Source: a bacterium
Lineage (GTDB): Bacteria > Vulcanimicrobiota > Xenobia > Xenobiales > JADMJV01
NCBI GenBank assembly: GCA_030149525.1
Contig: JASBRJ010000030.1
Span: 1-36,417 of the forward strand
Direction of reading: 5' to 3'
Length of the DNA stretch: 36,417 bases
The translations under genes were made by a program, and so were the position numbers. The notes beneath the pieces were generated by a model, which did not search any database, was not told where the DNA came from, and worked only from the letters and a program-made list of their open reading frames with translations. Positions 28,031 to 33,188 of the stretch are shown piece by piece; the stretch's first letter is position 1, and every line of letters starts with the position of its first letter.

Positions 28031-28142
28031 GTAAAAAAAGCTCCCCGGTGGTTTGCCAAGTCGTTCCCCGGGTCACCTTGGCGTTCCTCCCGCAAAGGCA
28101 TCCACCAGGAATGGCTCCCCTGCTCTCAAACCCTTGATCGTT

Positions 28143-28652
28143 GTGAAAAGTCTGGTAAACACCGCGCTACTCCTCGCCGCCACACTTATTCTGGGGCTGA
28201 GTCCGCTCGGCTTCCTGACAGTGCCAGGCTCGGGGAAAGCGATCACGGTCATGCATGTCCCGGTCATTCTTGCCGCCACGCTGGTGTCGCCGCTGGCTGC
28301 AGGCTTGGTAGGGGCAACCTTCGGACTTTTAGCAGGGCTGAAGTTTCAAGCCCCTCCTCTCATCTATCATGTGGTCACCAGAGCGCTTGCCGGAATTGTG
28401 GGCGGCCTCACTTTCCAGGCTATCAGTCGGACCGCCGAGGAGGGGTCCAAGGTGACCAAAGCCTCTCTGGCCACAGCGGTGACGACGACCGCGGCCAACA
28501 CTCTCTTTATGAGCGCCGCCATTTTCATTCTTCATCTAGCCGATCCGGCGGAACTCTTCTCCGTGGCCTACGTCCACGGGGTGATAGAGTTGACAATCGC
28601 TGTCGTCATTACGACTCCCGTTACTATCGCCCTGAAAGCGAGAACTCCATGA
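28143..28652 (+). CDS. ECF transporter S component, probably for pantothenate
   Basis: The protein has five or six membrane segments and the S-component signature: LTVPGSGKAITVMHVPVILA followed by a G-rich helix ATLVSPLAAGLVGATFGLLA. The start is uncertain. GTG at 28143 gives 169 residues beginning with a membrane segment, typical for the family; a TTG at 28053 would add 30 polar residues. The stop overlaps the coaX start as ATGA. In Firmicutes the S component PanT imports pantothenate, and coupling to pantothenate kinase here makes pantothenate the best guess for the substrate. The energising EcfA/EcfT subunits are not in the window and are presumably shared. Confidence 0.8.
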   Translation: MKSLVNTALLLAATLILGLSPLGFLTVPGSGKAITVMHVPVILAATLVSPLAAGLVGATFGLLAGLKFQAPPLIYHVVTRALAGIVGGLTFQAISRTAEEGSKVTKASLATAVTTTAANTLFMSAAIFILHLADPAELFSVAYVHGVIELTIAVVITTPVTIALKARTP

Positions 28653-29431
28653 ACCACCTGACCGTAGATGCCGGAAACTCGCAGCTGGCTTTCGTCCTCT
28701 ACCGGGGTCAAGAGCGGCTTGGCTCACTTCGGATTCGTACCAAGCCTCAATTTGCACCGGAAGAGATTCGAACAGCCTGGCAGCAACTGCTGCAAGAATT
28801 TCAATTCTCCGAAGAGCAGTGTCGACTGACTATAAGTAGCGTCGTGCCCAGATTAGAAAACAATCTTCGGAGCGCCGCCGACATTTCGGAGTGCTCATCC
28901 TTTCATTGGGTCGGCTGGAATTCACCCCATGGTTTCACCGCTTCGGAATCGGCCGGGCGAGAAATAGGAGCCGACATCATCTCCGGGCTGGTTGGAGCCT
29001 CCGAGTTCGCCCAACCGCCTTTTGTGGTGGTGGACTCCGGCACCGCCACAACTCTGACCTTAGTCGATCAGTCTTCTCACATTATGGGCGTCGCTATTCT
29101 TCCTGGATTGGTCACTCAAATGCTGAGCCTCACCCGCTCAGCGCCCCATCTGCCCCAGGAAGTGAGTCTGCATCCACCTCCGAACGCCTACGGCAACAAC
29201 ACCGAGGAGTCGCTCCAGAGCGGCATCCTCTACGGCCACGCAGGCTCTATTGAGGCCATACTGGCCCGATACCGAGGTCACTTCAACGGTCAGAAGCTTT
29301 CTGCTCTGGCCTGCGGAGGACTGTTTCATCGAATCTCTTCTCTCTGTCCGACTATCGATATTGAGGAAACGGAATTAGTCAATATCGGGTGTCGAATTCT
29401 GTCTACCCGAATAGGGCAGGAGGGCCTTTAA
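28649..29431 (+). CDS. coaX: Type III pantothenate kinase
   Basis: CoaX phosphorylates pantothenate, the first step of coenzyme A synthesis. The 260-residue chain has the ASKHA phosphate loop LTVDAGNSQLAFVLY near the start, the substrate-side GREIGADIISGLVGA, the second phosphate motif VVVDSGTATTLTLVD, ILPGLVTQMLSL and the adenosine-side GNNTEESLQSGILYGHAG. Length and motif order are normal. Type III kinases are not inhibited by CoA and need a monovalent cation. It overlaps the S-component gene by four bases and so forms an uptake-plus-trapping pair for the vitamin. The next gene starts 31 bp on and may be in the same transcript. Confidence 0.95.
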   Translation: MNHLTVDAGNSQLAFVLYRGQERLGSLRIRTKPQFAPEEIRTAWQQLLQEFQFSEEQCRLTISSVVPRLENNLRSAADISECSSFHWVGWNSPHGFTASESAGREIGADIISGLVGASEFAQPPFVVVDSGTATTLTLVDQSSHIMGVAILPGLVTQMLSLTRSAPHLPQEVSLHPPPNAYGNNTEESLQSGILYGHAGSIEAILARYRGHFNGQKLSALACGGLFHRISSLCPTIDIEETELVNIGCRILSTRIGQEGL

Positions 29432-29462: not shown

Positions 29463-30746
29463 ATGACCGTCGTAACCACAAACATACTCGAGTTCGATGA
29501 GCCTACTCTGGCTCAAGTTACGAGCTGGTATAAGGATCATATCTCACCCGATCTAGCCAGACTCCTTCGCCTTACAGGCTTCGGCGCCCTGGAGACGCGC
29601 GCAGAGGGGAGTTGGGTGATTGATCAGACCGGTCGACGTTATCTGGACTTCTCCGGTGGTTACGGAGTGTTCTCTTTAGGGCACCGCCATCCGGCCGTAG
29701 TGGCGGCCGTCAAGGACCAACTGGACAAAGTGGCCATGAGTTCCCGGGTTTTCATGAACCCTTTGCAAGCTCAACTGGCCGCAAAACTCGCCGAAATATC
29801 CCCCGAGGGCCTCCAGTATAGCTTCATCTCAAACTCTGGAACCGAGGCCATTGAAGCCGCCCTCAAAATGGCCAGACTAGCCACCGGACGGGAAAAGTTT
29901 GTCTCCACCGAGGGCTCCTATCACGGCAAGACCATGGGCAGCCTCTCCGTTTCCGGGCGCGCTAAGTACCAAGATCCTTTTCGCCCTCTACTCTCCGGCT
30001 GTGAAACCGTGAAATTTAACGACATCCAGGCCCTGGAAGACGCTCTCACCGAAGAGGTTGCCGGCTTTCTGCTGGAACCGGTCCAGGGCGAAGGCGGCAT
30101 TCATGTTGCCACACCCGAATATCTCCAAACCGCGAGACGCCTCTGTACCGAGCGAGGCATCCTCTTCATAGTCGATGAGGTACAAAGCGGCTTATGTCGT
30201 ACCGGCAAGTGGTTTGCCGTCGATCACGCGGGGGTGGCACCCGACATCATGACCCTTGCTAAATCTCTGGGAGGTGGAGTCATGCCGATAGGCGCTACCA
30301 TCTCTAACGCTAAAGCGGCCCAAGCTTACAAAGGCCGCCCTCTGTTGCACACCAGCACCTTCGGCGGTAATCCTTTGGCCAGTAGGGCAGCTTTGGCCAG
30401 TCTGCAGGTCATGGAAAACGAGTCACTTGCGCGTCAAGCTGAGTTATCTGGAGAAATCCTCAAGAGAGGCCTCACCGAATTAGCTAAAGAATTCCCGGAT
30501 CTGGTAAGAGAAATTCGAGGTCTGGGCTTAATGCTCGGGATGGAGTTTCATGAGGATAAATTCGGCGGTTCTCTCATCTTTGAAATGGTGAAACGGAACG
30601 TGATCGCTGTTTATACTCTCAACCAACCCAAGGTAATTCGGTTTGAGCCACCCCTGAATGTGGAAAAGGGGGAGATCGAGCAAGCCTTAAAAGCAGTTCG
30701 AGAATCTCTCGGCGAAACACGCCGACGACTAGGGAGTAACAAGTAG
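29463..30746 (+). CDS. Class III PLP-dependent aminotransferase
   Basis: The 427-residue protein matches the acetylornithine/putrescine aminotransferase group. Key segments are YLDFSGGYGVFSLGHRHP, the phosphate-binding SNSGTEAIEAALKMAR, GSYHGKTMGSLS, the EPVQGEGG glutamate segment, IVDEVQSGLCRTGKWFA (Asp238 for the PLP nitrogen) and TLAKSLGGGVMPIGA with the PLP lysine (Lys267). The amino donor and acceptor cannot be read from sequence. It leads a tight operon with a SRPBCC protein and an acyl-ACP-reductase-like protein, so a fatty aldehyde or other acyl-derived aldehyde is a possible acceptor (inference). Start by ATG; ribosome binding site is weak. Confidence 0.93.
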   Translation: MTVVTTNILEFDEPTLAQVTSWYKDHISPDLARLLRLTGFGALETRAEGSWVIDQTGRRYLDFSGGYGVFSLGHRHPAVVAAVKDQLDKVAMSSRVFMNPLQAQLAAKLAEISPEGLQYSFISNSGTEAIEAALKMARLATGREKFVSTEGSYHGKTMGSLSVSGRAKYQDPFRPLLSGCETVKFNDIQALEDALTEEVAGFLLEPVQGEGGIHVATPEYLQTARRLCTERGILFIVDEVQSGLCRTGKWFAVDHAGVAPDIMTLAKSLGGGVMPIGATISNAKAAQAYKGRPLLHTSTFGGNPLASRAALASLQVMENESLARQAELSGEILKRGLTELAKEFPDLVREIRGLGLMLGMEFHEDKFGGSLIFEMVKRNVIAVYTLNQPKVIRFEPPLNVEKGEIEQALKAVRESLGETRRRLGSNK

Positions 30747-30751
30747 AGTTC

Positions 30752-31192
30752 ATGCCTCAGGTTGAAAGGAAGATAGTCATCGACGGAGACCCGGAAAAGG
30801 TCTACGAGTTGGCCAAGGATATGGAAAACTATCCGAACTTCATGCCTGATGTGGAGAGCGTGAAAGTGGTCTCCCGTGAAGCCAATACCACGGTGACGGA
30901 ATGGGTCACCAACGTAGACGGCACGCCCTTTCTCTGGACTGAAAAAGACAATTTTGACGATTCGAAGCTACGGATCGACTACGCTCTTATCGAGGGCGAC
31001 CTGGAGAAATTTGAGGGTTCTTGGAGCTTTGAGGGGGTCGACGGAAAGACACAGGTGGTTCTCCTTGTGGACTACGACTTCGGCTTGCCGGAGCTAACCG
31101 ATCTCATCGGACCGACTCTGCATGAAAAAGTCGGCGAGAACAGCGAGATGATGTTGGCTGGGATGAAACGTTTGGTGGAGGAGAAAAGTTGA
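30752..31192 (+). CDS. SRPBCC (polyketide cyclase / START-like) protein
   Basis: The 146-residue protein begins PQVERKIVIDGDPEKVYELA, then DMENYPNFMPDVESVKVVSR, the usual start of the polyketide-cyclase/CoQ-binding SRPBCC family. A long C-terminal helix (GENSEMMLAGMKRLVEEK) closes the hydrophobic pocket of this helix-grip fold. Such proteins bind lipids, quinones or polyketides, or catalyse cyclisation. No catalytic residues can be assigned. It lies five bases after the aminotransferase gene, and its stop overlaps the next gene's TTG start (TTGA). A carrier role for a hydrophobic intermediate is plausible (inference). Confidence 0.88.
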   Translation: MPQVERKIVIDGDPEKVYELAKDMENYPNFMPDVESVKVVSREANTTVTEWVTNVDGTPFLWTEKDNFDDSKLRIDYALIEGDLEKFEGSWSFEGVDGKTQVVLLVDYDFGLPELTDLIGPTLHEKVGENSEMMLAGMKRLVEEKS

Positions 31193-32283
31193 ATCAATTT
31201 GCCTTTTTAACCCATCCACTGAGCATGAAGGACGTGGTGCGGTATGCCCCCAAAGCGGCGGGTAAACGCGAGCCTATCGTTCTCAAGTTGCTGGAGTGGA
31301 TGCCGCCTTACGAGGCCTCGGACATCAGAGGCGTACGAACGCCCATGGGTAAGGAAATCGCCGGCAATTTTGTCATGGTGCCCCTCATGCCCAGTCAATT
31401 TCTCAATCTGGAACGACCCACCGTTATCGATCGGGTGAAACGAGCGGCCCTTCTGGGACAGGAACTGGGCGCTCAGATGATCGGGCTGGGAGGCTACAAC
31501 TCCGTGGTCGGTCGGGCCGGTAAAGACGTGGCCGACGTCCTCGATGTGGCCGTGACCAGCGGAAACTCTTACACTGTTGCCACAGCCCTTCAAGGAGCCC
31601 TTAAAGCCGCCGAGGTTTTGGATGTGGATCTCTCCCGTTCTACGGTAGCTGTGATTGGCGCTACGGGATCGATCGGCAGTGTCTGTTCAAGATTTCTGGC
31701 CAAGAGAGTGCCTCGACTCGTGCTCTCCGCCCGTTCCAAATCACGGCTGAAGGTTCTCGCCGAGACCATCCAGCGTGAGAGCAGCACGGCGCTGAAAGTG
31801 GAAATGGATCTGGGGCGAGCCCTGTCGGAGGCCGATATCGTTATCACTGCCACCTCTTCCGGTGGCAGTATCATCCAGGCAGAACACCTGAAGACCGGCG
31901 CTATCGTTTGCGATGTGGCCGTACCCCATGATGTCTGCCGAGAAGTGGCCCAGCTTCGCCCCGATGTTCTGGTCATCGAAGGAGGGTTGGTGGAAGTTCC
32001 AGGCGATGTCGACTTCGGTCTGGACTTTGGATACCCGCCCGGATTGTGTCTGGCCTGTATGGCCGAAACCATGATCCTGACCCTGGAAGGCCGCTTTGAG
32101 AACTTCTCGATCGGTCGGGGCCTGGACTACGATAGAGTTCAAGAGATCGAACGACTGGCCGAGCGCAACGGCTTTCGATTGGCCGGTTTTCGAGCCTTCG
32201 ACGAGCCCGTTACTCAGCAGAAGATCGAGCAAGTGGCGAGCTTTATCCAAGACTCCCGCAAGCGTCTCAGGGTCATCTCTTGA
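31189..32283 (+). CDS. Long-chain acyl-[acyl-carrier-protein] reductase-like protein (AAR/COG5322 type)
   Basis: The 364-residue protein follows the layout of cyanobacterial aldehyde-forming acyl-ACP reductase: an N-terminal FAFLTHPLSMKDV segment, GAQMIGLGGYNSVVG (cf. LGGFSSIIF), TSGNSYTVATAL (cf. TTGNTHTAY), an NADPH fold VAVIGATGSIGSVCSRFLAK (153-172), and GLCLACMAETMILTLEG followed by NFSIGRG. The Cys at 290 in ACMAE matches the nucleophilic Cys that forms the acyl-enzyme in AAR. GGLVEVPGDVDFGLDFGYP also fits. It starts with TTG, overlapping the previous stop, and its stop overlaps the next TTG (TTGA). No aldehyde deformylating oxygenase is in the window. Databases often label such proteins shikimate dehydrogenase-like. 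Confidence 0.85.
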   Translation: MNQFAFLTHPLSMKDVVRYAPKAAGKREPIVLKLLEWMPPYEASDIRGVRTPMGKEIAGNFVMVPLMPSQFLNLERPTVIDRVKRAALLGQELGAQMIGLGGYNSVVGRAGKDVADVLDVAVTSGNSYTVATALQGALKAAEVLDVDLSRSTVAVIGATGSIGSVCSRFLAKRVPRLVLSARSKSRLKVLAETIQRESSTALKVEMDLGRALSEADIVITATSSGGSIIQAEHLKTGAIVCDVAVPHDVCREVAQLRPDVLVIEGGLVEVPGDVDFGLDFGYPPGLCLACMAETMILTLEGRFENFSIGRGLDYDRVQEIERLAERNGFRLAGFRAFDEPVTQQKIEQVASFIQDSRKRLRVIS

Positions 32284-33188
32284 AGACCGTCGTCTCGGTA
32301 TCTCTGGGCACGTCCAAACGCGACCACGAGACCCAGACGACCATTCTAGGCGAGACCATCCATCTTTCTCGCAGGGGCGTCGACGGGCAGTTCAAGAACG
32401 CCCTTGCCATGCTGCAGGAGTTGGACGGACAAGTTGATGCTATCGGCCTGGGCGGCATCGATATCTTTCTGAAGTCCCGAAATCAGACGTTCGAACTGCG
32501 TGACGGCAAGCGATTGCGAGAGGCGGTCAAGCAGACCCCTGTTGTGGACGGCAGCGGCCTCAAAAATACCCTGGAGCGGGAGACGGTTCATCATCTTCAG
32601 CGCTCGGGCCAGATCGAGTTGAAGGGCAAAAAGGTCTTGATGGTATGCGCCATGGACCGTTTTGGAATGGCCGAGGCGCTGCACGAAGTGGGTGCCAACA
32701 CTGTCTACGGGGACATGATCTTCAGTCTCAATCTGGACAAACCGATCCTGACTCTCGAAGAGCTGGAAGAGCGTGCCACCAAGCTGTTGCCGGAGATCTG
32801 TAAACTTCCCATTTCCATGGTTTATCCCACCGGCAAAAAGCAGGAAGTGATCGAACCCGACACCCTCACAGCCCCCTACTTTGAGGAGGCCGAAGTGATC
32901 GCCGGTGACTTCCACATTATCCGTCGCAAGCTGCCCGATAGCCTGGAAGGCAAAGGGATCCTCACCAACACCGTGACTTCTCAAGACCTGGAAGAATTGA
33001 AGAAGCGTGGTGTGGCCTGGCTTGTCACCACCACTCCGGAACTTGAGGGGCGGAGCTTCGGGACCAACGTGTTGGAAGCTGCGCTCCTGGCCATGCTCGG
33101 AAAGAGCTGGGAAGAGGTCACGGCCGAGGATTACCTCGGCTTGATTCGCGAGGCCAACCTCTTGCCCCGGGTTGTTTCCTTCAACTAG
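32280..33188 (+). CDS. Conserved dehydrogenase-like protein of unknown function (quinate dehydrogenase-like label)
   Basis: The 302-residue protein starts at TTG in a TTGA overlap with the AAR-like gene. It begins MKTVVSVSLGTSKRDHET and has GLGGIDIFL, a Rossmann-like turn (KGKKVLMVCAMDRFGMAEAL, about 115-135), then EVIAGDFHIIRRKLPDSLEG and WLVTTTPELEGRSFGTNVLE. I recall such proteins annotated as quinate 5-dehydrogenase-like beside AAR-like genes in other bacteria, but the label is not supported by a known reaction. There is no membrane segment. Close coupling suggests it acts on the same pathway as the other three genes. Confidence 0.75.
   Translation: MKTVVSVSLGTSKRDHETQTTILGETIHLSRRGVDGQFKNALAMLQELDGQVDAIGLGGIDIFLKSRNQTFELRDGKRLREAVKQTPVVDGSGLKNTLERETVHHLQRSGQIELKGKKVLMVCAMDRFGMAEALHEVGANTVYGDMIFSLNLDKPILTLEELEERATKLLPEICKLPISMVYPTGKKQEVIEPDTLTAPYFEEAEVIAGDFHIIRRKLPDSLEGKGILTNTVTSQDLEELKKRGVAWLVTTTPELEGRSFGTNVLEAALLAMLGKSWEEVTAEDYLGLIREANLLPRVVSFN

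Follow-up and report, generated by a model that had tools for sequence, protein, structure and literature searches.

The window, by which we mean the whole stretch of 36,417 nucleotides analyzed here, comes from an 8.27 Mb genome assembly of the phylum Eremiobacterota (WPS-2). It contains an operon encoding a class III aminotransferase (AT), an SRPBCC (START-type) protein, an acyl-thioester (acyl-ACP/CoA) reductase-like enzyme (AAR), and a protein of an unnamed family, here called G4 (Table 1). The first two genes are separated by 5 bp (30747-30751), and each of the other two junctions is a TTGA overlap, in which the TTG start of the next gene is combined with the TGA stop of the previous gene. 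The earlier note had described positions 29463-33188 as four coupled genes, and the common strand, the 5-bp gap, and the two overlaps were all confirmed. The start codons are in accord with the homologs, which align with the operon proteins from the same Met onward, and for genes 3 and 4 the TTG start is backed by homologs beginning at the same residue. An ECF-transporter S-component-like gene and a type III pantothenate kinase gene (coaX) are located directly 5′ of the operon (window 28053-29431); coaX also occurs close to AAR or G4 in numerous other genomes, some of them Bacillota-type.

Table 1 Genes and junctions of the operon, in window coordinates.
Feature	Position	Strand	Details
Gene 1, class III aminotransferase (AT)	29463-30746	+	427 aa, ATG start
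Gene 2, SRPBCC (START-type) protein	30752-31192	+	146 aa, ATG start
Gene 3, acyl-thioester (acyl-ACP/CoA) reductase-like enzyme (AAR)	31189-32283	+	364 aa, TTG start, predicted catalytic Cys290
Gene 4, G4, unnamed family	32280-33188	+	302 aa, TTG start, AAR-like predicted fold
Stop/start overlap, genes 2/3	31186-31195	+	TTGA = 31189-31192
Stop/start overlap, genes 3/4	32277-32286	+	TTGA = 32280-32283

In NCBIfam, the best match of the gene 3 product is the reductase N-half of PigE (8.9e-65), with an alignment to positions 48-361 of the profile NF053554, and the next is the cyanobacterial acyl-ACP reductase TIGR04058 (1.2e-33). Because its score of 116.9 bits is far below the TIGR04058 equivalog cut-off (449.7 bits), homology does not tell which acyl substrate it uses. 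Its sequence matches in the PDB are 4ppm and 6jzq. As the earlier note had proposed, the predicted structure of the product starting at 31189 was compared with AAR: the seven best Foldseek matches of the AlphaFold model (pLDDT 89) are AAR crystal structures, far ahead of the rest, and Cys290 pairs with the catalytic Cys294 of SeAAR in the alignment. Cys290 lies in the motif LACMAET, which is followed by NFSIGRG, and the claim that this cysteine and its flanking context are kept was borne out. Both Cys290 and Glu293 are invariant among 37 sequences, including SeAAR and one PigE. The GxxGxxG loop is also retained (G157, G160, and G163), and R182, R186, and R310 are aligned with R189, R193, and R314, the NADPH-phosphate arginines of SeAAR (PMC7089970). 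The cyanobacterial AAR (TIGR04058, PDB 6JZQ/6JZY) and gene 3 have the fold, the catalytic Cys, the glycine motif, and the three arginines in common, whereas their identity is about 28%, gene 3 has no ADO partner, and Tyr247 of SeAAR is replaced by Val or Leu in the operon AARs. AAR-family matches below the cut-off were also seen in the control genomes of Thermus composti, Deinobacterium chartae, and Methanocaldococcus jannaschii.

The AAR homology of gene 3 would fit a cyanobacterial style of alkane synthesis from a fatty aldehyde. The earlier note had found no aldehyde deformylating oxygenase (ADO, PF11266) in the window; its absence was confirmed and extends to the whole genome assembly, and 148 of the 149 Eremiobacterota genomes searched also have none. 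With ADO in only one genome of the phylum, alkane synthesis is extremely improbable and was rejected. The lone exception (G118:C230:30633-31253) has an ADO-family match above the cut-off as well as an AAR, and is a possible alkane maker.

Gene 1 scores 369 bits against PF00202 (gathering cut-off 30.5), which places it among the class III aminotransferases. Its best NCBIfam matches, both of which score under the equivalog cut-off, are the putrescine aminotransferase PRK11522 (1.5e-132) and the C-half of PigE (6.7e-127, positions 376-733 of NF053554). The PLP-binding lysine is K267 in MTLAKSLGGG, and it is invariant among 18 sequences.

Genes 3 and 1 thus match the two halves of PigE. The fusion proteins PigE (prodigiosin), TamH (tambjamine), and KecF (koreenceine) combine the same two families, a catalytic-Cys acyl-thioester reductase and a class III aminotransferase. 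Coupled reductase-aminotransferase chemistry has been shown by experiment for PigE and TamH; TamH makes amines from fatty thioesters, and its transaminase domain works with glutamate and C7-C14 aldehydes (PMC8341465, PMC9594044). AAR is likewise combined with a class III transaminase in PP_2782 and the transaminase-AAR fusions from Thermaerobacter and Thermincola, and the transaminase of these fusions is active on aliphatic aldehydes (PMC10829540). AAR homologs on plasmids are also mostly fused to AT: 12 records were listed, 10 of them were annotated under the match, and all 10 were class III aminotransferases. Unlike PigE, TamH, and KecF, which are single polypeptides from scattered natural-product clusters, the operon encodes AT and AAR separately, together with SRPBCC and G4, and is vertically kept across a phylum. 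The PP_2782, Thermaerobacter, and Thermincola proteins differ from it in being fused, with AT at the N-terminus, and in belonging to NRPS/PKS-type clusters. The AAR and AT of PigE branch apart from the operon clade, in trees whose deep forks are weak; in the AT tree the own-genome paralogs form long branches, so that the operon AT can be placed only tentatively with respect to the fusions.

Three independent lines, namely the operon linkage here, the fusion of the two families elsewhere, and the published biochemistry of PigE and TamH, indicate that AT and AAR catalyze successive steps. Reductive amination of an acyl thioester by these two enzymes is well supported. The proposal in the earlier note of a conversion from thioester via aldehyde to amine agrees with the PigE matches, the PigE/TamH experiments, and the plasmid fusions. 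In this scheme, Cys290 of the AAR-like enzyme would accept the acyl group of an ACP or CoA thioester, NADPH would serve to release it as an aldehyde, and the aminotransferase would then form a primary amine from this aldehyde, with an amino acid as the donor. The most likely task of the SRPBCC protein is to shield the hydrophobic intermediate or to pass it on, while that of G4 is most likely to bind to AAR or to work on the substrate or product of AAR, in a capacity other than that of a Cys/NADPH reductase. We consider it probable, with some reservation, that the operon as a whole is a reductive-amination module with SRPBCC as the handler and G4 as a non-Cys/NADPH partner; the reaction direction, substrate, chain length, and product, as well as the roles of SRPBCC and G4, are what we infer here from the families, residues, operon linkage, and conservation established by sequence comparison.

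Putrescine aminotransferase, which gene 1 matches best in NCBIfam, is a catabolic enzyme, and thioester reduction is reversible in principle; AT might instead produce an aldehyde by deaminating a primary amine or diamine, and the AAR-like enzyme would oxidize this aldehyde to an acyl thioester. However, AAR, PigE, and TamH all operate reductively, and both near-universal vertical conservation and a housekeeping-gene setting (see below) are unusual for amine catabolism. We regard this reverse direction as improbable and retain reductive amination as the preferred reading.

Gene 2 is assigned to the SRPBCC superfamily by its match to PF03364 (1.7e-20, 74 bits; gathering cut-off 23.4), and its nearest solved relative is TTHA0849 from Thermus (2d4r). 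It has its fold family in common with SRPBCC/START proteins such as TTHA0849, RatA/Coq10-like proteins, and polyketide cyclases, and its hydrophobic ligand is putative. RatA toxin was rejected as its identity, since gene 2 scores far below the RatA cut-off in NCBIfam (37 versus 258). The gene is kept between AT and AAR across Eremiobacterota. In some families (L050, L052-L054), other genes lie between SRPBCC and AAR; they are variable and look like insertions, and were rejected as a fifth member of the operon.

G4 has no match in Pfam, NCBIfam, or PDB sequences. A profile-profile comparison with AAR gave a probability of 0.5% and a PDB profile search was empty, so G4 as a sequence-detectable AAR paralog was rejected; its link to AAR comes from structure alone. 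In a VIA-align search with the predicted model (pLDDT 92.7), AAR (6jzq_D) ranked top with a Z of 13.6 over 245 residues (rmsd 4.3), followed by the carmabin TAD domain (Z 13.3) and glutamate dehydrogenases (10.6); the Foldseek result was less clear. We therefore regard G4 as AAR-like in its predicted fold and as a probable, though not proven, homolog of AAR. Across 132 sequences from at least three lineages, D126, R127, S259, and N263 are invariant, no conserved Cys column was found, and the glycine-rich motif is absent, with D126-R127 in the dinucleotide loop where AAR has glycines. In the predicted models, the AAR helix that carries Cys290 (289-299) corresponds by order to residues 262-273 of G4, and in a secondary-structure register set by hand, Asn263 takes the place of the Cys and Glu266 that of Glu293. 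G4 is more conserved than AAR (mean column identity of 68% versus 58%). The earlier note had called the fourth protein dehydrogenase-like and had it adding a redox step. The first description holds insofar as the predicted fold is nearest to AAR, but not for the Asp-Arg in the dinucleotide loop and the Asn at the Cys position; the second is unsupported, because without the glycine motif and a conserved Cys a redox step by G4 is not to be assumed. A partner, regulator, or non-redox enzyme is a better reading of G4 than a redox enzyme.

Within Eremiobacterota, G4 was detected in 135 of 149 genomes and AAR in 138, and each is present in more than 95% of the good-quality genomes (81/85 and 83/85, respectively). 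G4 is present in a genome of the same family as the window's (G138) and in another of the same order (G145). The order AT-SRPBCC-AAR-G4 is found in every family sampled in which the contig extends far enough; in a single family (L046/L077), no SRPBCC was detected. Phylum membership of the Eremiobacterota-type loci was judged from record annotation and kinship; 29 of them reach 6 kb or more upstream of G4, and of these, 27 have the four genes in this order, one lacks SRPBCC, and one lacks both AT and SRPBCC. This linkage is far beyond chance. Such near-universality within the phylum speaks for a core constituent of the cell, perhaps an amine-containing lipid, and against a dispensable natural product.

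Conserved linkage in other phyla, which the earlier note had suggested looking for, was also found. In Oleimmundimicrobium (L109), the gene order is G4-AT-SRPBCC-AAR, and an Actinomycetes MAG (L122) has the same order as far as the contig end. In Aquicultor, G4 and AAR adjoin, and AT and SRPBCC are located at another site (L172:1447-3803), where the next gene after the pair resembles a CDP-alcohol phosphatidyltransferase gene (pgsA). The Bacillota-type phylum of Desulfovirgula has G4 in 187 and AAR in 160 of the 249 genomes sampled (both in 157, AAR only in 3, G4 only in 30, and neither in 59), corresponding to an odds ratio of 103 (Fisher p 1e-30, with phylogeny ignored). G4 is followed by AAR at a distance of 12-184 bp in 94 of the 106 genomes with both coordinates listed. 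The typical neighborhood is coaX, dusB-like, a helix-turn-helix protein, G4, AAR, greA-like, and lysS-like; the names of unsearched neighbor genes were read from their sequences.

In the Bacillota-type genomes examined, the AAR locus contains neither AT nor SRPBCC, and in most Bacillota genomes AT is unlinked to AAR. Together with the adjacency of AAR and G4, this would suit a reading in which these two form the real unit, delivering an aldehyde or another product to a core process, with AT and SRPBCC as lineage-specific add-ons. On the other hand, the AT-SRPBCC linkage recurs in Oleimmundimicrobium, Aquicultor, and the Actinomycetes MAG, and AT relatives above 470 bits are present in 14 of the 15 G4 genomes examined outside Eremiobacterota; we therefore consider the two-gene unit unlikely and keep the module of all four genes as the preferred reading. 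Some genomes without AAR beside G4 carry an AT-AAR fusion elsewhere (L201 and L205, from one genome). As 30 of the 249 Bacillota-type genomes have G4 without a detected AAR, G4 may serve a separate function.

Pairs of acyl-thioester reductase and transaminase are known from scattered natural-product clusters, and their coupled chemistry is not new. Here nearly all genomes of one phylum have such a pair, and in another phylum AAR and G4 are located among housekeeping genes, which suggests a core cell component. In the open-licence PMC papers, we found no description of such an operon in Eremiobacterota, of its SRPBCC and G4 partners, or of the G4 family. A more tentative and rather speculative reading is that the operon represents an undescribed core pathway of Eremiobacterota, with parts in Bacillota- and Aquicultor-type lineages, in which a membrane amine or aminolipid would be made by reductive amination; G4 would then be an obligate AAR-fold partner rebuilt around Asn263 and Asp126-Arg127, controlling or channeling the reaction or catalyzing a further non-redox step. 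G4 represents a family of about 300 residues without a Pfam or NCBIfam name, present in hundreds of genomes from three or more lineages, and its confident predicted fold and fixed candidate active-site residues make its role directly testable. Twelve polar lipids of the cultured Vulcanimicrobium alpinus were reported as unidentified (PMC9758169), and they are a candidate place to seek the product of the predicted pathway.

Several neighboring genes were also observed. In some G4-positive, AAR-negative genomes, a protein of about 288 aa with no Pfam, NCBIfam, or PDB match directly follows G4 in the usual place of AAR (L193:5655-6518, L194:6280-7146, and L195:6904-7770). A conserved protein of about 180 aa with a weak N-terminal helix-turn-helix match, possibly a regulator, precedes G4/AAR in Bacillota-type loci (L160-L170 and L193-L211). 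Several Desulfotomaculia (L095, L108, L112, and L117) have genes for an SCP2-domain protein and an amino-acid-permease-like protein 3′ of G4, with AAR in the coaX-greA locus; SCP2 is another lipid-binding-type protein beside G4. No G4 was found on plasmids. A Leisingera plasmid (L216:3594-7781) encodes an aminotransferase-AAR fusion of about 1395 aa with a long C-terminus, which adjoins an outer-membrane lipoprotein-sorting protein and an MMPL transporter, suggesting an exported product.
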